Positions 10,485-21,161 of a DNA stretch of 64,000 nucleotides are shown piece by piece; position 1 is the first letter of the stretch, and every line of letters begins with the position of its first letter. The stretch comes from Chloroflexus aggregans DSM 9485. Lineage in GTDB: Bacteria > Chloroflexota > Chloroflexia > Chloroflexales > Chloroflexaceae. The notes under the pieces are model-generated. The model did not search any database. It saw only the letters and a program-made list of their open reading frames with translations, and was not told where the DNA came from. Location of the stretch: positions 1,687,353 through 1,751,352 of the forward strand of contig NC_011831.1 in the NCBI RefSeq assembly GCF_000021945.1. The letters run 5' to 3'. Position numbers and translations under genes: made by a program.

Positions 10485-11213
10485 GTGAGCACGTCTGATG
10501 AAAAAATGCCGCTCTCGGTGCTCCTCTTCCACTCTGCAATGAAGCAACAGATGTCATTGGCCGACTTTGCGGCAGCCCTCGGCTTGAGCGTAGCGACCCT
10601 GCGTTCGTATCTTTTTGAAGCAGGATCACGTTCGCGAATGCGTAGCAAGACGGTTGAGCAAATGGCTAAAATACTGAATATGCCGGCTAGCGAGGTACGC
10701 GAACGTGCGGAACTCCTCCCTTACGCCGATCAACCGTTTGGTGAGTGGCTGAAAGCACAAATGCAAGGTCGTTTTACCCGCGCCAGCCTGTGTACCGCTA
10801 CCAAAATCAGTGATAGCGCGATGAAAAATTATCTCAGCGGCCAAACAACGCCCGACCCCGATAACGCCATTCGCTTGGCCGAGGTGCTTGGCGCCGACTC
10901 GCTGACGGTTGCCCGCCTGATCGTTGCCTCCGAACTGCGCCGGCGCGGTGTTGAATTGCCGAGTGCGCCACATCGTGAACAGACGGTGCCGGTTGAACCG
11001 ATGCCGGAGCCAAAACCGGAACCTGCTCCTATACCGGCTTCGACCACCGTTGATGGTGCAACACCCACTCCCAAGAGCGATACCGTCATCGACGAGGCCA
11101 TCATCAATGCCTATACTGAACAGCGTCTGCTCAACCTGTGGCGGCGCCTGCACCCCCAAGGTCGGCGCGCAACCCTAACCTACATCGCTTCCCTGCTGGC
11201 CGAAGGGATGTAA
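10485..11213 (+). CDS. XRE-like helix-turn-helix regulator with two HTH units
   Basis: 242 residues from a GTG with AAAGGA upstream. Two XRE/lambda-Cro-like units are visible: MSLADFAAALGLSVATLRSY (about 22-41) and TRASLCTATKISDSAMKNYL (about 98-117, followed by SGQTTPDPDNAIRLAEVLG). A proline-rich linker (about 165-205) leads to a short helical tail, ERRLLNLW-like EQRLLNLWRRLHPQGRRATL. No enzyme domain. It is driven by a perfect consensus promoter and lies just left of the HerA-NurA methylation operon, so it may control that island, as C proteins do in R-M systems; this is inference. The next co-directional gene is 830 bp away. Confidence 0.8.
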   Translation: MSTSDEKMPLSVLLFHSAMKQQMSLADFAAALGLSVATLRSYLFEAGSRSRMRSKTVEQMAKILNMPASEVRERAELLPYADQPFGEWLKAQMQGRFTRASLCTATKISDSAMKNYLSGQTTPDPDNAIRLAEVLGADSLTVARLIVASELRRRGVELPSAPHREQTVPVEPMPEPKPEPAPIPASTTVDGATPTPKSDTVIDEAIINAYTEQRLLNLWRRLHPQGRRATLTYIASLLAEGM

Positions 11214-11257
11214 TGTACTTGAACCCGGATGCTGAACTTCATCATTAGAACGGAGCA

Positions 11258-11548
11258 TTATGTTGTGACCTGCAGAAAACCCTGGTCAGATGGATAACGA
11301 AGCCTAAAAAGGTGATCACCTGCGTCAAGGAACATGCTTGTGCATAGCCCGCGCCGACGCAGCATTTCGGGCAGGCTAAAAAGGTGATCACCTGAGTCCA
11401 GCCATGCATGGTCACATACCAACAGTACTACGGCACCGGCAATATAACATTCACCCTTGTAATCGCATCCACATTCAAATAAGAATATTGTGAAGGTCGT
11501 ACCGACTGTGGCGATGCAGGCGATCAGAGGATCATCGGCAAAACGCAC
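11258..11548 (-). other. Doubtful 96-codon frame over palindromic repeats; possibly part of a decayed gene
   Basis: A GTG-started frame of 96 codons on the minus strand with no recognisable domain. Two direct repeats 72 bp (24 codons) apart make it encode LDSGDHLFSL and LDAGDHLFRL. The frame stays open upstream past the GTG to about 11640, where it meets in another phase a second open frame (11640-11831, ending SSVFDRSLHLCI). One frameshift would join them, so this could be the remnant of a longer leftward gene. No convincing ribosome-binding site. I do not recognise the product, and non-coding repeat DNA is an equal possibility. Confidence 0.2.
11304..11398. repeat. Two direct repeats, each with the palindrome AGGTGATCACCT
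   Basis: CTAAAAAGGTGATCACCTG occurs at 11304-11322 and 11376-11394 (72 bp apart) and the likeness continues for four more bases with one mismatch. Each copy holds a perfect 12-bp palindrome (11310-11321 and 11382-11393) flanked by an A-run. They may be operators for the adjacent HTH regulator, weak terminators (a T-run follows on the minus strand) or two members of a dispersed repeat family. The rest of the 830-bp gap (11214-12044) shows no firm gene or RNA. Confidence 0.6.
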
Positions 11549-12044
11549 ATTCTTCTGGTTCGCCTTACTCTGTTCTCTGGAACTGACAGGCTTCTCTTCG
11601 TTCGCCTGCGGCGCAAGTGTGATTTGTCTCCTTACTTGATCAAATGCACAAATGCAATGACCTGTCGAAGACTGAACTTTCTGGGCAGAACCTTATTGCA
11701 AGGGCGCCAAGGGCAATCGTAAAATCTGAAACAGCAGCGACTGTCATCGGCATAGAAGTGTGCATATCGGTAGCTGGAGATCCGGTATCATGCAGAGAGT
11801 AATGCAATACGGTTTGGCAGATAGTGAACATACTCTCAAAAGTTGATACTACCTAACACAATGGTACCGGTCTGTTAACGAGTAACAAGTCGACATTTTC
11901 ATATCACTTATACTTCATAAAGTCTGGTACTGATTAGTGAGACTAAACCGATAGCGCCTCCACCCGTTCCGGCACTACAGCTCGGCCAAATTTCCGTTAG
12001 CCCACCGATATCCAGGCTCTACAAGCAACGTCGGAGGTAATCAA

Positions 12045-13661
12045 GTGTCTGATAGCACAATACTGGCCCTGACAGACGATGCACTCATCGGAGAAACTTC
12101 TTCATCGGAGTTTTCGTCCGAGGGGGGAACTCCTACTTTTGACCGAATTCCATTTCGCGTCAGAGCAGGAAAATGCCCTAATCTTAATACTTTTGTGATA
12201 GCCCTCCGACAAGGGGATGACAACAGAGCACACTATGGCAGGATTATTGCCGGCAGTGAACTGAACCTGCGGGCCAGCCCTACAGGGATGCAAAAGGATG
12301 ATGCCTATGGTATGCGACGTACCGATATTCGTTCATCAGAGCTGTCACCCGATCTGGTGAGAGTAATGGAGATTGAGCTTCTTGGAGAAATTAGCGTATT
12401 GGGTAACGGCTCTTTGGAAATCACCGAACCGACCCAGCTTCCTCACACCGGGCAACCTGTGTACGAATTGCCCGCTACAATTATCCCGAAACTTCTCAAC
12501 ATTCCCGAAGATGAGAGGGTACAAGATAAAGATAAACCAACCAGTGCTTCAGGCCTTTATCTGGGAAACATCGAATCAGGGGGGCACAGCATACCGTTCT
12601 TTTTACCGAATCGTGCCATTGCCCGTCATATTGCCGTACTAGGGAAAACCGGCGTTGGAAAGAGTTATGCCGTCGGCGTCTTGATGGAGGAACTCTACGC
12701 AAAACGTATCCCGATACTCTCGTTTGATGTCTTGGGAGATACCGAACAAACGGCAAGGGAACTTGAAGGAAAACATATCGTTGCCGGGACCGACGATTTC
12801 AAAATCCCCTACTCTATCATAGGTCTTGAGGAGTTTCTGGCGTTCATTCCGAACCTAACAAGCGATCAGCGAGAATTGATAACATCGGCTTATGGCAATG
12901 TCTTTGATGAGGCGCTCGATAAACTTGAGAAGGGGGAGGAATTAAATATTCCCTTCAGTCGTCTTACATCTCTTGTTGAAGACATCGGCCGATCTATCAA
13001 TTCCAAAGCAACTCCGAATGCAGTCAAGCGGGTCGAAGCAGCCTTCAACCGAAGTTCTCTCCTAACCGACAAACCGGTTACATGGACAAACCTTTTGGAA
13101 ACCTCACCACTTATTAACATCTATGTAGGCCATTTAGGCCAATGGCAACGCAATCTTGTTGTAGGCGCAGTAGCCCGTATTCTCCAGCGATTAAGGCGTC
13201 GCAATCATATACCACCGTTCGTTTTGGTTATTGATGAAGCGCATCTGTTCTTGCCCGGCGGGAGTGACCTCCCACCCTCGACATTGGTTCTTCGAGAGAT
13301 GATCCGCACGGCTCGGCATGACTCGGTGGGGGTGGTATTGTTGAGCCAAAGTCCTTCTTCGATGGATCGCCAGATTCTGCTCACCTGCAATACACGTATG
13401 CTCTTTGCTTTGGATCCTGAAGATTTACGGGTAGTTGCCGGGCAAATCGGCGATCTGCCGGAGGAGACGATAAAGCGTATTCCGAGAATGGCCCGTGGCA
13501 CGGCGGTATTCACATCCGGTATGGACATCATGCGTCATGCGGTCATCGTTAAAATACGCGAAAGAACCTTTACGACCCATGTAGCCGAAACTCCCGATTT
13601 ACGTGAGGCGGTTGAACAATGGCACAGAGAACATCAGAAACAGCAAAACAGCAGCAGATAA
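12045..13661 (+). CDS. HerA-type hexameric DNA-translocating ATPase
   Basis: 538 residues from a GTG with a strong CGGAGGTAATC site. The N-terminal ~150 residues fit a HAS-barrel-like beta domain; the DUF87/HerA ATPase core follows with Walker A GKTGVGKSYAV (about 200) and FDVLGD, an inserted helical region (about 265-350), Walker B VLVIDEAHLFLP (about 394), then IRTARHDSVGVVLLSQSPSS and a C-terminal EETIKRIPRMARGTAVF. HerA rings translocate along double-stranded DNA and power the NurA nuclease; in archaea they work in end resection. Here the gene overlaps a NurA-like gene by 43 nt and heads an operon with a glycosylase and a C5 methyltransferase, pointing to defence or modification-linked work rather than housekeeping. 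GC is visibly lower than in the flanking genes. Confidence 0.88.
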   Translation: MSDSTILALTDDALIGETSSSEFSSEGGTPTFDRIPFRVRAGKCPNLNTFVIALRQGDDNRAHYGRIIAGSELNLRASPTGMQKDDAYGMRRTDIRSSELSPDLVRVMEIELLGEISVLGNGSLEITEPTQLPHTGQPVYELPATIIPKLLNIPEDERVQDKDKPTSASGLYLGNIESGGHSIPFFLPNRAIARHIAVLGKTGVGKSYAVGVLMEELYAKRIPILSFDVLGDTEQTARELEGKHIVAGTDDFKIPYSIIGLEEFLAFIPNLTSDQRELITSAYGNVFDEALDKLEKGEELNIPFSRLTSLVEDIGRSINSKATPNAVKRVEAAFNRSSLLTDKPVTWTNLLETSPLINIYVGHLGQWQRNLVVGAVARILQRLRRRNHIPPFVLVIDEAHLFLPGGSDLPPSTLVLREMIRTARHDSVGVVLLSQSPSSMDRQILLTCNTRMLFALDPEDLRVVAGQIGDLPEETIKRIPRMARGTAVFTSGMDIMRHAVIVKIRERTFTTHVAETPDLREAVEQWHREHQKQQNSSR

Positions 13662-15799
13662 TCGAAGCCGTTCTGGATGTGTTGCAGAAAGTAGCCGGCG
13701 ATGTGGTAGGCCTATCTATCCGTGATTTGCAGCTCCAATTGCGCGCACTGGATCTAATCGTCGCAGATCACTTGTTAAGAAGCGCCTTGAACCAATTGCT
13801 GGACGAAGGCAAGATAGAGAAGCGACCTTGGCCGGAGCACAGAGGAAACTTCTGTTTCAATCTACCCGGCCAGGGTATCTCTCAAATGTCCCTGTTTGAC
13901 CTACAGACCAGTCGTGACGAGATCGAGCGAGAAGAGCGAAACGGCCTAGATCTGTGGCAACGGGATGAGGCCGAGCGTGAACGTGCAACCGCTTCGGTCA
14001 TGGAAGAGATCGCCCGCAGCCACGCCCTTGAGGAAAACTACGCCAAGTTGGTTCATGATATTGCTTCCGTCCTTGCCGATGAGAACCCGGTTGACCTTAT
14101 TCTGGAGATCGCCGATTGGGTGATCAAAGACTTGAACGATTTGGCGGAAAAGATAGGAGCGGCAGGTTCGGGCGCGCAGAGCGAAATTCAGCGGTTAACC
14201 AGAGAACTCGGGTTTCGGCGGTCAAAAGCAGAGAGTTTTTTCCAGAGGCTTTGGAGGCTGGACCGCTCGATAGGAAGTGCAAAAGGAATTCTTGATATTC
14301 CAACCGTGCCACAAATGCTCAGGGGTAGCAAGATAAGATTTGATAAAGAGGCTGCTAAACGCCGTCTCCAAGAGAGAATAGTCGGAAACAAGGTCATAGA
14401 AGTCATAACGGCGCCTGAAAATCCTCACAAAGCAGCAGTCGGGACGGATGCTTCGGTAGGAGATGTGATGATAGAACATGCACGTGGGAGTTTTATCCCG
14501 CCAACCCCGGCCACCCTGTTTGTCTCCGCCGGGGCAATGAGAGTGCTTGATCGGTCGAATGCCCTTAGCTATTGGGACTACGACTTAGATCCGCGCGAAC
14601 TCCGGCGATACAAAGATTTGGATGCAGCCGTAGAGGGACTGTTGATCTCGCCACACTTGCGTCGAGAAGTTATCACGGACTTTCGCCATTTGCGTTCTGC
14701 CGCCATGGAATTGCGTCAATACGCCGAGGAACTACGAATCGTTCTACAACAATCCAAATGGCATCCTATCAGTGGAGTACCCGAAATACAACACCCACCG
14801 ACAGTCACATTACTGATCCGCGATGGCCGCATTTTTCCATTGGTGCATCGTTTGGATGACTATGACGGAGCCAGCGCCCCGGATGACATTTTATACGGCG
14901 AAGTCGTCCGGCGGGAAATCCGGACTTTCCAAAAGGTTTTTCATAACACGGCAGGTAACGGATGCTTGGGTGCAATTTACGGTGGCGCGGTAAAGTCTCC
15001 CGAATATTCTTGGCTGGCAATGATTACTTTCTGGTACTTACATGTCAAGAAAGGCCATCCGGATTTGGTCGATGCTTTCTACCGCCCGCCGTTGAACGAC
15101 CAAGCCGTTACCCATCTTTTGTTCTGGGGACTGGCCGAGTCGAAACCGGATCAGGCTTTTGGCGACCCACGGAACTCGTTCGTAACGTTCCGAGCTCTCA
15201 GACGCTTTTCCGACATAGCTTTCTTCCCTCATCCCAGGCCGCTTACCGATGATTCGGGTAAGGTTGTCCGGACGGTTCAAGAAGACAACATAGACGATTG
15301 GCTTGCTTACATTCAGCAACATATCAACGAGGCGAACCAGAGATATGACCAGCATAAGCGGGGAATTCCGGCGTTGACCACGATTGATGACTATAAGCCT
15401 TTCCTTGACCTCTGCCATCGCGCCGGGGTCGCGATGTTTTATGCCGCTCCTGCCAGAATGTATAGGGCTACGTTGAGCGATCGGGCGCACTTCTTCACAC
15501 CACGCTGGGAAATAGCAGTTGATCTAACAAAGGATATAGGAGAGGAGATCAAACGCCGTCTTGAAGGGCTTATGGCGTGGCTGGTTGAGCAAGACGGACT
15601 GGTAGCCGATGAGTCTCATGCCGTGGGAGGATTTGAAGAAGTGGCCGAAGGCCTTCCGCTTTTTATTCCCAACGTTGTGATGGAAGCCCACCGAGCAGTT
15701 GGATACGGCCGCGAACGACATGCGATGGATGTACAAGACGATCTCCAAAGGCTGGTTACCGATATTCGTGCCGGACGATTGGGTTCTGTAAATCTATGA
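13619..15799 (+). CDS. NurA-like nuclease with N-terminal winged helix and coiled coil
   Basis: 726 residues, about twice the usual NurA. Residues 1-90 resemble a winged helix (VGLSIRDLQLQLRALDLIVA ending in EHRGNFCFNL); about 100-250 is charged and helical, probably coiled coil. From about 265 the NurA pattern appears: AVGTDASVGDVMIEH (Asp near 278), VTLLIRDGRIFPLV (Asp near 399), GGAVKSPEYSWL (Lys near 456) and TPRWEIAVDL (Glu near 629), matching the acidic metal-binding positions of this RNase-H-like 5'-3' nuclease. It overlaps herA by 43 nt and the glycosylase by 4 nt, so the partners are probably made in fixed ratio. The extra N-terminal domains may contact DNA or recognise a target. Remote family assignment by motif only. 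Confidence 0.72.
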   Translation: MAQRTSETAKQQQIIEAVLDVLQKVAGDVVGLSIRDLQLQLRALDLIVADHLLRSALNQLLDEGKIEKRPWPEHRGNFCFNLPGQGISQMSLFDLQTSRDEIEREERNGLDLWQRDEAERERATASVMEEIARSHALEENYAKLVHDIASVLADENPVDLILEIADWVIKDLNDLAEKIGAAGSGAQSEIQRLTRELGFRRSKAESFFQRLWRLDRSIGSAKGILDIPTVPQMLRGSKIRFDKEAAKRRLQERIVGNKVIEVITAPENPHKAAVGTDASVGDVMIEHARGSFIPPTPATLFVSAGAMRVLDRSNALSYWDYDLDPRELRRYKDLDAAVEGLLISPHLRREVITDFRHLRSAAMELRQYAEELRIVLQQSKWHPISGVPEIQHPPTVTLLIRDGRIFPLVHRLDDYDGASAPDDILYGEVVRREIRTFQKVFHNTAGNGCLGAIYGGAVKSPEYSWLAMITFWYLHVKKGHPDLVDAFYRPPLNDQAVTHLLFWGLAESKPDQAFGDPRNSFVTFRALRRFSDIAFFPHPRPLTDDSGKVVRTVQEDNIDDWLAYIQQHINEANQRYDQHKRGIPALTTIDDYKPFLDLCHRAGVAMFYAAPARMYRATLSDRAHFFTPRWEIAVDLTKDIGEEIKRRLEGLMAWLVEQDGLVADESHAVGGFEEVAEGLPLFIPNVVMEAHRAVGYGRERHAMDVQDDLQRLVTDIRAGRLGSVNL

Positions 15800-16467
15800 G
15801 CGCAGAAAAATTCCCTTACCTCTTGAAGGCCGGCGCCGAGTTATCAAAGCATAGAATTGCGGAAACGGAGCTGCCGTGGCGGAAATATCGAACACCCTAC
15901 CGGATATTTCTGGCCGAAATGTTACTCGTCCGTACCCGTACCGATATTGTGGCCAATCACTTTGAAAAGATTGCCTCAAAGTATCCGACAATTGAGGCAC
16001 TCGCTCTCGCAGACGAAAGTGAATTGAGAGAAGTGTTGCGCCCCCTGGGGTTATCCAAGCGGTTTCCTTATCTGATAAAAGCCGCACGTTATATTTGTGA
16101 TAATCACAATGGAGAGATACCGGCCGACTTTGAGAGCTTGCTTAAAGTCCCGGGAATAGGAAAATACACTGCTACTGCCATCCTGATATTTGCTTATGGT
16201 CAGAAATTGGTTCCGGCCGATGTAAACGTTCTACGTTTTGTTTCTCGGTTTACCGGTCTTGAAATGGGACATGTGACCAAAGGTTCTCGAGAACTATGGA
16301 ACCTCTTACCGCTTTTGTCAGAGGCTAACGTCGGCTTGTCCGCCGAAAATCTTTTGGATTTCACAAGGTTGATTTGTAGAGCTCGTAAGCCCAAATGCAA
16401 TGCATGTCCCTTGTCTGCTCACTGCTCGTATTTCAAACATGTGCTTTCGGAGCAAGATGGTCGATGA
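15796..16467 (+). CDS. HhH-GPD mismatch DNA glycosylase of MIG (G:T) type
   Basis: 223 residues of the endonuclease III/MutY superfamily. Present are the helix-hairpin-helix VPGIGKYTATA, the catalytic aspartate D142 in VPADVNVLRF, and a 4Fe-4S motif C194-x6-C201-x2-C204-x5-C210. The residue equal to the lyase lysine of endonuclease III is tyrosine Y124, 18 positions before the aspartate. This Tyr/Asp pair, together with LPWRKYRTPYRIFLAEMLL, is how the archaeal mismatch glycosylase MIG differs from Nth (Lys) and MutY (Ser). MIG removes T or U from G:T and G:U, the result of 5-methylcytosine deamination, and its gene also lies beside a C5 methyltransferase. Start and stop overlap both neighbours by 4 nt. 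MutY-like activity is the alternative. Confidence 0.85.
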   Translation: MSAEKFPYLLKAGAELSKHRIAETELPWRKYRTPYRIFLAEMLLVRTRTDIVANHFEKIASKYPTIEALALADESELREVLRPLGLSKRFPYLIKAARYICDNHNGEIPADFESLLKVPGIGKYTATAILIFAYGQKLVPADVNVLRFVSRFTGLEMGHVTKGSRELWNLLPLLSEANVGLSAENLLDFTRLICRARKPKCNACPLSAHCSYFKHVLSEQDGR

Positions 16468-17552
16468 AGCCGGATGTTACACCGACGATGATAGATTTGT
16501 TTGCCGGTTGTGGAGGGGTGACGACAGGATTTAAAGCCAAAGGGTTTAACGTATTGGCAGCAGTAGAGTTCGATCCTGTGACCGCCCAAACATACCACCT
16601 CAATCACCCGGAAGTTGCCCTGTATGTGCAGGACATCCGAGATATATCACCGAACGAGATGATGGCGAGGTGCAGATTAGAACGTGGTCACCTTACCGTC
16701 CTAAGTGTGTGCGCTCCTTGCCAGCCGTTTAGTAAACAAAACCGTTATCGACATGCGGACGAACGAGCTTCTTTAATCCTCGAGACCGTTCGTTTTGTTG
16801 AAGCATTCCATCCTCTGTTTCTCTTTATAGAGAATGTGCCAGGACTAAGGCAACATTCGGATATTTTAGATACATTAGTCGGCGATTTAGAGAAATTAGG
16901 GTATACCATGTCCGAGCCGGCTATTGTAGATGCGGTGAAGTACGGTGTACCACAATTCCGTAGGCGCTTTATCTTACTTGGTACTTGCCTCGACAGAGCG
17001 TTACGGATACCGGAGGAGACCCATGCTTCACCACACGAGGCAGTTCGGTTGGGGAAACAGGAATGGCTTACGGTAAAAGATGCGTTTGCCGGTCTCCAAA
17101 GCTTGCATGCAGGCGAACAGAGCGCTACCGATCCCTTGCACAAAGCAAGGAAGCACACGCCCTTAAGCTTAGAGCGCTTGAAACATATACCGCATAACGG
17201 TGGGAGCAGAGACAGTCTCCCGATCGAGCTCCAACTATCTTGCCATCGAAACGGCAGACATGGTGGGTATCACGATGTGTACGGCAGACTGGATTTTGAA
17301 CGACCTGCTAATACGTTGACGACCGGCTGTACCAATGTGACCAAAGGAAGATTTGCGCATCCTACATCCGACCGTGCAATAACGCCAAGAGAGGCAGCTC
17401 GGTTACAGACATTTCCAGATACGTATCGGTTCTATGGCAGCTACGAAAAAATCTCTGCTCAGATAGGTAATGCTGTGCCGGTTAAGCTGGCAGAGATATT
17501 TGCGCAGTATTTTCATGAACTTTGGGAGAAGCTGAGCCAGAGAACCGGCTAA
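16464..17552 (+). CDS. DNA (cytosine-5-)-methyltransferase
   Basis: 362 residues from the ATG overlapping the glycosylase stop (ATGA); an in-frame ATG 69 nt upstream lies within the glycosylase and would add a non-conserved tail. All main motifs are seen: I (IDLFAGCGGVTTGF), IV with the catalytic cysteine C86 (SVCAPCQPFSKQ), VI (FIENVPG), VIII (VPQFRRRFILLG), IX (RPANTLTTGCTNVTKGRF) and X (AQIGNAVPVKLAEIF). It transfers methyl from SAM to cytosine C5; the target-recognition region before motif IX (about 200-270) is of unknown specificity. As fourth gene of the overlapping series it should mark self DNA. It may also protect against the restriction enzyme 97 nt downstream, although that enzyme has its own methyltransferase. 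Confidence 0.92.
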   Translation: MKPDVTPTMIDLFAGCGGVTTGFKAKGFNVLAAVEFDPVTAQTYHLNHPEVALYVQDIRDISPNEMMARCRLERGHLTVLSVCAPCQPFSKQNRYRHADERASLILETVRFVEAFHPLFLFIENVPGLRQHSDILDTLVGDLEKLGYTMSEPAIVDAVKYGVPQFRRRFILLGTCLDRALRIPEETHASPHEAVRLGKQEWLTVKDAFAGLQSLHAGEQSATDPLHKARKHTPLSLERLKHIPHNGGSRDSLPIELQLSCHRNGRHGGYHDVYGRLDFERPANTLTTGCTNVTKGRFAHPTSDRAITPREAARLQTFPDTYRFYGSYEKISAQIGNAVPVKLAEIFAQYFHELWEKLSQRTG

Positions 17553-17649
17553 CATCTGCTCTTGCCGATCGTTTCATCGGCTCGCTTTGCTCGCCTTGGT
17601 CACAGCAGCTAGACTCGAGACCGTTTGTCGGTACATCGTAAGGCCAACA

Positions 17650-18303
17650 ATGAAACAAAAGTTGACACTAGAACTGCTGAAGACAGAAGCACACACATTC
17701 GCCGAAATCGAGTCGGGGCATCGAGAGCCGACGTTGTACGGCGTTACTGATGGGAAAGCAGTTGGTACGTACTTCGAGCACAAGTTCAGGTCTTACCTCC
17801 GCGAAAGGTATGATTTTGAGGAGGGCAGCTCTGCGAGTGGAATAGACTCTCCTGAGCTTGCAGTTGACATGAAGGTAACAAGCATAAGGCAACCGCAATC
17901 TTCATGTCCTTTCAAATCTGCTCGACAGAAAATCTATGGTCTGGGCTATTCTCTGCTCGTGTTTGTATACGAGAAGACAGATGACCCACAAACATCTACG
18001 GAGAATTTGAACATTTTGCACACGATTTTTGTCAGTAAAGAGCGGACAGCAGACTTTCAAACGACCGCGGGGCTCCGTCGAATACTTGAAAATGAGGGTA
18101 ACAAGGATGACATTATGGCTTTCATTGAAGAGCGCAGACTTCCAGTCGACGAGATTGAGGCATCAGCGCTAGCCGACGAGATCCTCGCCAATCCCCCTGA
18201 GGTCGGCTATCTTACCATCTCGAATGCCTTACAATGGAGACTTCAATACAGTCGAGTAATTGAGGAGGCTGGTTCGGTTGGAGGACTTGAAAGACTGAGA
18301 TAG
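17650..18303 (+). CDS. Probable type II restriction endonuclease (PD-(D/E)XK)
   Basis: 217 residues from an ATG; a TTG-started extension of 21 residues is less likely. A plausible PD-(D/E)XK centre is E44 (YFEHKFRSYL), D66 in SASGIDSPEL and D73-x-K75 in AVDMKVTS, followed by a conserved-looking SIRQPQSSCPFKSARQKIYG. This block and the tight 2-nt gap to a DNA methyltransferase point to the nuclease of a type II system. The C-terminus (about 150-217) is helical and may hold specificity. It has no start-stop overlap with the upstream methylase, so it probably belongs to a second, adjoining R-M unit. Recognition sequence unknown. Confidence 0.72.
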   Translation: MKQKLTLELLKTEAHTFAEIESGHREPTLYGVTDGKAVGTYFEHKFRSYLRERYDFEEGSSASGIDSPELAVDMKVTSIRQPQSSCPFKSARQKIYGLGYSLLVFVYEKTDDPQTSTENLNILHTIFVSKERTADFQTTAGLRRILENEGNKDDIMAFIEERRLPVDEIEASALADEILANPPEVGYLTISNALQWRLQYSRVIEEAGSVGGLERLR

Positions 18304-18305
18304 CG

Positions 18306-19910
18306 ATGCGCGATCAACAACAACGCAAAGCCGAATTTGGGGATTTTCAAACGCCCCTCAGCTTAGCCAGGGAAGTATGTTCCCTTATCGCTCGGACTGG
18401 TTTTCGTCCCGCTTCGATTCTCGAACCAACATGTGGGACGGGTTCGTTTCTCAAAGCATCTTTAGAAACATTCCCAGACGTATCGCGTGTTCTTGGCTTT
18501 GAGATCAATCCGCAATACGTGTTGCAAGCGCAGTATGCTGTCACACGCGCATTTCCTCATGCGTCCATTGAAGTTCATCAGTCTGATTTCTTTCTCACGA
18601 GTTGGTCTGAGATTGTTAAAGCGTTGCCTGAGCCCATTCTTGTTATAGGCAATCCACCCTGGGTGACGAATGCAGCGTTGAGCACTTGGGGCAGTAGCAA
18701 TGTTCCGATGAAATCAAACCTCGACAATCTCCCTGGTATTGATGCGCTCACCGGTAAGAGTAATTTCGACATTTCGGAATGGATGCTTAGAAAGAACATC
18801 GAATGGCTGAATGGCAAAAACGTCATACTTGCAATGCTTTGTAAAACGACAGTAGCACGTAAAGTTCTCTTGTACGCTTGGCAAAACGGTGTGCGGATCG
18901 AATCGGCATCACTTTATACCATAGACGCACAGGAGTACTTTAGAGCTTCGGTTGACGCTTGCCTTCTGTTCATTCGAAGCAATCCGACCGGCAATAGCAA
19001 AGAATGCCAGGTTTTTCGTTCTCTTCATGCACAACAACCCGATAGCTCGTTCGGTTTGCAGGATGGAATGCTTGTGGCTGATGTCAAATCATACCTGAAA
19101 CGGAAAGACCTCACAGGGACAGGCTTTAGGGGCTGGCGGTCAGGAATAAAGCATGATTGCAGCAAAGTCTTTGAGCTGCGCATTGAACGTGGGAATCTTG
19201 TTAATGGCCTAGGAGAATTCGTTGAGATTGAACCTGAAGTGCTCTTTCCTCTGTTAAAAAGTTCTGATCTCGCAGCGCATAGGAAGCCGCATCGGTGGAT
19301 GCTTGTTCCTCAACGGGCAATGAGTGACGACCCGAGCCGTCTTAGGTTGGACGTTCCCAAGGCCTGGAATTACCTTACTGCCCATGCACATCTTTTGGAC
19401 GAACGAAAGAGTTCAATATACAGGAACCGTCCGCGCTTCTCAGTCTTTGGAGTTGGACCATATTCATTTGCTCCCTGGAAGATTGCTATTTCGGGTTTAT
19501 ACAAGAAACTTGAGTTTGTTCAAGTTCCACCTTTTCTGGGAAGCCCGGTGGTTCTCGACGACACATGTTATTTTTTCCCATGTCAGTCTGAAGAAGAATG
19601 CAATCTATTGTACGAATTGGTTACATCCGAACCTGCCAGAGAGTTCTGGTCTGCATTAATTTTCTGGGATGCAAAGCGGCCAATTACGGCACAACTTCTT
19701 AACTCACTTGATCTGATGGTTCTTGCACGCCTCTTGGGTAAGGAATGTGATATAGCGCGAACTCTTGCGGAACGACAGATTGTAGAATACACGGAAGGGG
19801 CTTTCCAGAGACTCCTTTTCAGAGAAGAAACTGCTGATTATGACGGTGAACCGGTTACAAACGAATTCGATTTGCTAACCAATCAACACATGCATACCGG
19901 GAAACAGTAA
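18306..19910 (+). CDS. Amino-DNA methyltransferase (NPPW type, probably N6-adenine)
   Basis: 534 residues. The N-terminus has FGDFQTPLSLAREV, SAM-binding motif I ILEPTCGTGSFLKA (about residue 40), GFEINPQYV (motif II) and the catalytic motif IV VIGNPPWVTNAALS with N116-P-P-W119. This order and the NPPW/Y tetrad fit N6-adenine (or N4-cytosine) methyltransferases of the Eco57I-like class. The C-terminal half (about 250-500), with no enzyme motif, is likely the target-recognition region. The start lies 2 nt after the endonuclease stop, the classic R-M pairing. The island ends here, with a hairpin 13 nt after the stop. Confidence 0.87.
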   Translation: MRDQQQRKAEFGDFQTPLSLAREVCSLIARTGFRPASILEPTCGTGSFLKASLETFPDVSRVLGFEINPQYVLQAQYAVTRAFPHASIEVHQSDFFLTSWSEIVKALPEPILVIGNPPWVTNAALSTWGSSNVPMKSNLDNLPGIDALTGKSNFDISEWMLRKNIEWLNGKNVILAMLCKTTVARKVLLYAWQNGVRIESASLYTIDAQEYFRASVDACLLFIRSNPTGNSKECQVFRSLHAQQPDSSFGLQDGMLVADVKSYLKRKDLTGTGFRGWRSGIKHDCSKVFELRIERGNLVNGLGEFVEIEPEVLFPLLKSSDLAAHRKPHRWMLVPQRAMSDDPSRLRLDVPKAWNYLTAHAHLLDERKSSIYRNRPRFSVFGVGPYSFAPWKIAISGLYKKLEFVQVPPFLGSPVVLDDTCYFFPCQSEEECNLLYELVTSEPAREFWSALIFWDAKRPITAQLLNSLDLMVLARLLGKECDIARTLAERQIVEYTEGAFQRLLFREETADYDGEPVTNEFDLLTNQHMHTGKQ

Positions 19911-19922
19911 ACGCTGCGGTAA

Positions 19923-19943
19923 GGGACGTGAAGGGTACGTCCC
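19923..19943 (+). terminator. Hairpin after the methyltransferase gene
   Basis: GGGACGT (19923-19929) and ACGTCCC (19937-19943) form a perfect 7-bp stem with a 7-nt loop, 13 nt after the stop codon. There is no T-run, so it may end transcription weakly or protect the 3' end. Confidence 0.4.
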
Positions 19944-20033
19944 AATGGGCACGTCGCTCGCTTCTGATAAGCGTGTCACAAGGAAGGCTTCGCGATCCTC
20001 GACCTGCTTGACAAACACACCACCAGAGTTCAC

Positions 20034-21161
20034 ATGCTACCGCTTCGCATTGGCTTCGATGCCCGCTACGCTCGCGACCATTTTCCCGGCATTGGTCGCT
20101 ACATTACCGCTCTCTTACCGGCACTCAGCCGGCATTGTCGCTCCCATCACCTGTTCGTCTTCACTAATGCCGACCAATCGCTGCCTTCGCTTCCCGCCGA
20201 TGTGGTCGAGTTGGTCCCGGTACGGAGTGGCCCTTTTGCACTCAGCCAACAAATTGAGCTACCCCTTATTGCCCGGCGGTTGCGTCTCGATGTGTTCCAT
20301 TCGCCGTATCTCGTTAAGCCGTATCTGCTCCCCTGCCCATCGGTTGTCACGATCTACGACGTTGTGCCATTGCGTTACCCACAAACGCTCAGCCCACGCG
20401 GACGACGTTTTTATCGCGTAAGCTTACGTCTCGCCGCACAAAGCGCTCGTAAACTGATTACGATCTCGTCCGTCTCGCGCGATGATCTTGCGTTCCACCT
20501 GCGCATCCCACGCCAACAGATCGCCGTAACGCCGCTGGCCGCTGCACCATTGTTTGTCCCACAACCGGTTGATGAGATTACTGAAGTGCGCTTACGCTAC
20601 GGTTTACCACGACATTACGTGTTGTATGTTGGCTCGAATAAACCACACAAAAACATCGACCGCCTCCTGCGCTCATGGCAGCGCGTGCTCCCGGCCTTAC
20701 CAGAACAGTATGCCAACACCATACTGGTCATAGCCGGGAAGTTTGACCCCCGCTATCCGTTGCCGACTGCGCTTGCCGCCGAACACGGCGTGGCCGACCA
20801 GGTGAAGGTCTTGCCGAATGTCGCCGACACCGATCTACCTGCACTCTACAGCGGTGCCTTACTTTTCGTCTTTCCTTCGTCGTATGAGGGATTTGGTCTT
20901 CCACCACTCGAAGCGATGTCCTGCGGCACACCGGTGGTTTGTGCCTACGCCGGCAGTTTACCCGAAGTGGTTGATGACGCCGCATTGACGGTTGACCCAC
21001 ACAACATGCACGACATCGCCGAGGGCATCTTGCGCGTCCTCCGTTCGCCCGCACTCCGTGACGTGCTCCGGAGTCGAGGATTACGGCAAGCAGCACGTTT
21101 TTCGTGGCAAGCAACTGCTCAAGCTACCCTTGCCGTTTACGAGGAGGCGGTGCAGCGCTGA
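20034..21161 (+). CDS. GT4-family glycosyltransferase
   Basis: 375 residues with the two-domain GT-B layout. N-terminal RIGFDARYARDHFPGIGRYI is the typical glycine-rich acceptor-side start; the C-terminal domain has YVLYVGSNKPHKNIDRLLRS and the EX7E donor-binding motif in FPSSYEGFGLPPLEAMSCGT (about 281-300) followed by PVVCAYAGSLPEVV. It transfers a sugar from a nucleotide donor to a cell-surface glycan or lipid; substrate unknown. It stands alone at the right edge of the accessory island, with GC back at the host level. Confidence 0.9.
   Translation: MLPLRIGFDARYARDHFPGIGRYITALLPALSRHCRSHHLFVFTNADQSLPSLPADVVELVPVRSGPFALSQQIELPLIARRLRLDVFHSPYLVKPYLLPCPSVVTIYDVVPLRYPQTLSPRGRRFYRVSLRLAAQSARKLITISSVSRDDLAFHLRIPRQQIAVTPLAAAPLFVPQPVDEITEVRLRYGLPRHYVLYVGSNKPHKNIDRLLRSWQRVLPALPEQYANTILVIAGKFDPRYPLPTALAAEHGVADQVKVLPNVADTDLPALYSGALLFVFPSSYEGFGLPPLEAMSCGTPVVCAYAGSLPEVVDDAALTVDPHNMHDIAEGILRVLRSPALRDVLRSRGLRQAARFSWQATAQATLAVYEEAVQR

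Follow-up and report, generated by a model that had tools for sequence, protein, structure and literature searches.

A putative portable type II restriction-modification pair in Chloroflexus aggregans, most likely independent of the HerA/C5 methylase module next to it

The window analysed in this work, a stretch of 64,000 nucleotides from Chloroflexus aggregans DSM 9485, contains an island in which two DNA methylases of different chemistry (C5 and amino) are encoded in a single run of genes, raising the question of whether they serve one composite restriction-modification (R-M) system or two systems that merely lie side by side. A preliminary description of this DNA had placed a small nuclease and an NPPW methylase 2 nt apart, 97 nt behind the operon of the C5 methylase, had read the two genes as a self-contained R-M pair, and had left both answers standing. 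The coordinates (Table 1) agree with this layout, the open reading frame list giving both genes of the pair on the same strand. The spacer in front of the pair is the sole sizeable gap in the run (the four upstream genes overlap each other), and no sigma-70-type promoter or terminator match is listed within it. The nuclease reading frame, as mechanically called, begins with a TTG at 17587; the ATG start is used here, and 80 genome loci align from residue 1-6 of the ATG-started protein.

Table 1. Features of the island and of its surroundings (positions in the window).
Feature	Position	Strand	Remarks
Helix-turn-helix (HTH) gene	10485-11213		flanking gene
Interval, HTH gene to glycosyltransferase gene	11214-20033		missing in 5/7 congeners
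HerA/NurA-like/HhH glycosylase/C5 methylase module	12045-17552	+	apparently separate neighbour
HerA-type ATPase	12045-13661	+	module gene 1
NurA-like protein	13619-15799	+	named by eye from the sequence and the HerA neighbour
MutY/Mig-type HhH glycosylase	15796-16467	+	best PDB match 1kea
C5 methylase	16395-17552	+	module gene 4
Spacer, C5 methylase ORF to pair	17553-17649		97 nt
Type II restriction endonuclease gene	17650-18303	+	217 aa from ATG; probable PD-(D/E)XK fold
Amino-methyltransferase gene	18306-19910	+	534 aa; predicted N6-adenine
Glycosyltransferase gene	20034-21161		flanking gene

Judged by its profile matches, the nuclease is a member of the NCBIfam family NF052465 (type II restriction endonuclease), which it matches at 6e-106 with 352.3 bits (curated cut-off 290) over model positions 1-208 of 209; the PADLOC model PDLC03454 (REase_II) is matched at 2.8e-106. 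A Pfam search gave no family, and a sequence comparison with PDB chains gave no credible relative. In the alignment of 31 homologues, E43, D66, D73 and K75 are invariant in all, and D66, D73 and K75 supply the conserved D ... (D/E)-x-K of PD-(D/E)XK enzymes, so that, by our own assignment, E43, D66 and D73-x-K75 form a candidate active site. The block SIRQPQSSCPF had been described as family-specific, which is true of its core, QPQSS-P at 81-87 (Q81, P82, Q83, S84, S85 and P87 being invariant in 31/31), but not of S78, R80, C86 and F88, which vary among the same sequences.

The AlphaFold model of the nuclease (built from 26 sequences; pLDDT 88.1, pTM 0.84) places positions 73-75 of the putative site in a predicted strand formed by residues 72-78. 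When the model was compared with the PDB using Foldseek, the best match was SwaI with an E-value of 0.11, and none was found at E <= 0.001. VIA-align, which re-scored Foldseek's own candidates and in which a Z under 8 can reflect a common arrangement, gave NlaIV (Z 8.9, rmsd 3.3, 122 residues) and MvaI (8.2, 4.2, 139), followed by MutH (7.9, 5.3, 150), HincII (7.7, 3.8, 126) and EcoRV (7.5, 4.1, 139), with SwaI at Z 7.1; a Z of 8 was reached by only 2 of 650 chains. Restriction enzymes or MutH make up 49 of the 50 VIA rows listed, which correspond to 11 distinct proteins, with many repeats of EcoRV and HincII. These six enzymes, which we take to be PD-(D/E)XK enzymes, thus have a core similar to that of the nuclease (at VIA Z 7.1-8.9, the Foldseek comparison not being significant), but no sequence relationship to it was detected. 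A PD-(D/E)XK fold is therefore likely from the motif and the VIA list taken jointly, neither fold score proving it alone. The refuting case named in the preliminary description, a predicted structure lacking the PD-(D/E)XK site, did not arise: the candidate site is present in the model, whose nearest solved structures are for the most part restriction enzymes, with modest scores.

The methylase matches the PADLOC model PDLC03310 (MTase_II) at 1.3e-154 over model positions 1-472 of 475. Its NPPW motif lies at residues 116-119, and G115, N116, P118 and W119 are invariant in 23/23 aligned sequences, P117 being nearly so. The motifs follow each other as GDFQTP, EPTCGTGSFL and NPPW (motifs X, I and IV of the gamma type) and then the C-terminal part, an order that fits the BseCI-like type. 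The profile of the methylase family matches M.BseCI at 5.1e-12 in the N-terminal part, and the model of the methylase (pLDDT 82.0, pTM 0.74, with residues 1-12, 122-152 and 494-534 under 50) matches the same enzyme with a Foldseek E-value of 5.6e-19 and a VIA Z of 18.8 (rmsd 5.3). The fold is thus shared with this adenine-specific DNA methylase (PDB 7qw5-7qw8) over 436 residues, although the two proteins are only 17% identical in the aligned part and the target site of M.BseCI cannot be transferred. Since both the profile and the model match M.BseCI, the product is likely to be N6-methyladenine rather than N4-methylcytosine, a prediction that falls short of proof.

How the pair behaves elsewhere was followed in 116 nuclease loci (two copies of the window included; 111 distinct nuclease sequences). 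In 112 of them a match to the methylase lies directly downstream on the same strand, which is the partner arrangement of a Type II R-M system, and the distance between the two genes, measured between aligned stretches, is at most 56 nt in 107 loci and at most 233 nt in all 112. Among the four loci without a methylase, the available sequence stops 139 and 5 nt past the nuclease match in two (L015 and L078), and in a third (L019) the match is a 23-residue fragment. The fourth, L028, is a real exception, being a viral contig with a divergent nuclease (43% identity) and 8 kb of flank on each side, yet no methylase match; in this contig (7932-11930) the lone nuclease relative is followed by frames that resemble, by eye, ThyX and ribonucleotide reductase.

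The genes of the neighbouring module behave differently in the same census. By tblastn at 1e-3, the C5 methylase, the HerA-type ATPase, the NurA-like protein and the glycosylase were found in 0 of the 114 nuclease loci outside the window, in the flanks available (short in L001-L020, and with at least 3 kb upstream in 74 of the 112 methylase-bearing loci), and two-sequence profiles of the C5 methylase and HerA likewise found nothing in these 114 loci. The wider flanks of 12 of the 17 other carriers in the phylum (0/12, some limited by contig ends) do not contain module genes either. The C5 query is able to pick up other C5 enzymes, as it detects a 43% identical relative at 2e-83 in another locus (L138, described below). 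Six of the nine plasmids with a nuclease match were examined, one of them 6.8 kb long; the methylase is present in all six, the C5 module in none. Additionally, a congener (G134) carries the pair (89% and 83% identity) elsewhere in its genome, without the C5 module. The preliminary description had named as refuting a usual pairing of the endonuclease homologues with the C5 methylase alone; in the flanks available, the C5 methylase was seen solely in the two window copies, and the reading as a self-contained pair is borne out by the 112 loci.

The genome collection contains at least 570 relatives of the nuclease; the census used the 80 closest, so that remote members of the family are hardly sampled. 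Matches were additionally found in 10 viral loci (three sharing one nuclease sequence), in 9 of 72,556 plasmid records, in one of 50,697 phage records (itself unannotated) and, some as fragments, in 18 of 400 genomes of the phylum, source genome included; E. coli genomes gave no DNA match to the pair. By record title, the carriers include Planctomycetes, Cyanobacteria, Verrucomicrobia, Nitrospira, proteobacteria and plasmids of Lactobacillales, and one archaeal bin carries a nuclease with a stop inside. The nuclease family is widespread and evidently mobile. No difference was seen between the pair and the systems formed by an NF052465/PDLC03454 nuclease and a PDLC03310 methylase, with which its gene order agrees in the 112 loci above; it is an ordinary, further member of a known, catalogued and common type II family. 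In a literature search, none of the papers listed describes, by its title or abstract opening, either this pair or a HerA/C5 module.

A recognition site was sought through the avoidance of palindromes. Pooling 110 loci of carriers (1.27 Mb) gave CAGCTG, CTCGAG, GTCGAC and TTCGAA as the most depleted 6-base palindromes; the pool omits both window copies (L001, L006), the remaining short loci of the phylum (L002-L012) and two duplicates (L023, L024), and keeps some repeat content through the overlap of L013 and L148. When 8 carrier genomes were compared with non-carriers of the phylum for 78 palindromes, the strongest differences were those of GGCC, CGATCG, GATC, CCGG, AGCT and CAGCTG. Some carriers, however, have GGCC at close to the expected frequency. 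All carriers for which an expectation exists fall short of it for CGATCG and AGCT, but the pooled non-carriers are depleted too (0.60 and 0.75, against 0.34 and 0.62 in carriers), and for CGATCG single non-carriers overlap the carriers. CGATCG is at most a weak lead, and no palindrome is put forward as the site. CAGCTG is equally depleted in congeners that are not carriers (0 occurrences where 19 are expected, 1 where 38 and 2 where 31). Its strong depletion runs through the genus (L150-L189 together with the window) and, because carriers and non-carriers are affected alike, suggests some other, genus-wide pressure.

We hold it to be very probable that the pair constitutes a complete and portable type II R-M system. 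In the mechanism that we propose, the nuclease, probably of the PD-(D/E)XK type, would cut DNA at a short site, and the BseCI-like amino-methylase would methylate that same site, most likely at the adenine N6, thereby protecting the host DNA from the nuclease, with phage as the presumed target. A different possibility is that the pair no longer restricts in the source genome, the methylase being active and the nuclease not. Decay does occur in the family: in the congener G118 the nuclease is reduced to a match of its C-terminal 30 residues next to an open methylase frame (L137, 6395-8037), a decay of the cutting half, and in 5 of the 116 loci a stop interrupts the aligned part of the nuclease. 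In the window, however, both frames are open over the family length and both proteins keep those residues in which all the other aligned homologues agree, and we regard a loss of restriction here as very improbable.

The neighbouring module, which is more unusual than the pair, was found in only one other genome, in a locus (L138, 106-6166) from a genome of another class, where HerA (48% identity), the NurA-like protein (36%), the C5 methylase (43%) and the glycosylase (31%) are all present, in an arrangement other than that of the window; the 29 genomes found for that class do not include the window's. The pair is absent from this stretch, an absence seen on one side, since the contig starts just beyond the NurA-like gene; the phylum search for the nuclease, which apparently covered this genome (G081), does not have it among its 18 matching genomes. 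The best PDB match of the glycosylase, at 6.5e-34, is 1kea, an enzyme possibly acting in G-T mismatch repair, with MutY entries close behind (from 5.8e-33); a G/T glycosylase would suit a C5 methylase, but the protein may also be a MutY. The NurA-like protein gave no family in Pfam, NCBIfam or PADLOC beyond one chance-level Pfam hit, no credible PDB match and no match in plasmids or in viral contigs (the viral search needing exact peptide seeds), and it occurs in 2 of the 400 phylum genomes, source genome included. As a tentative and rather doubtful reading, the four genes may form an undescribed module in which the HerA translocase and the NurA-like protein would cut, the C5 methylase would mark self and a Mig-type G/T glycosylase would repair deaminated 5-methylcytosine. 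Upstream of HerA there are two 29-nt direct repeats (11301-11329 and 11373-11401, 90% alike and 72 nt apart), each containing the palindrome GGTGATCACC, which could be a regulatory site.

It remains to be weighed whether the pair and this module work together, that is, whether the nuclease and both methylases act with HerA and the NurA-like protein in one composite system. Their common strand and the short distance between them are compatible with this, as is their base composition, the genes of the island having 46.8-51.8% G+C and the flanking genes 57.2 and 57.5%. Both also lie within one interval that 5 of 7 congeners do not have: in these, the HTH and glycosyltransferase genes adjoin at 65-100 nt (stop codon included), the distance in the window being 8,820 nt, while in the two others (G118 and G134) the glycosyltransferase gene is present and the HTH gene is not in the stretch examined. 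No repeats of at least 14 nt bounding the island were found. Against a composite system stand the absence of the module genes from the available flanks of all 114 nuclease loci outside the window and the module of L138, which shows no pair in the stretch available. Because of these two observations, the pair and the C5 module are most likely two independent systems stacked by location, and a composite system is highly unlikely. Of the two alternatives left by the preliminary description, it is thus stacking that the census of homologues favours, and the composite that it speaks against; the pair would simply sit behind an unrelated HerA/NurA-like/glycosylase/C5 methylase operon, the two not being parts of one machine.

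The presence of two methylases of different chemistry in the island is, on this most likely reading as two stacked systems, explained by there being two systems, and the four-gene HerA module is thereby isolated for study.
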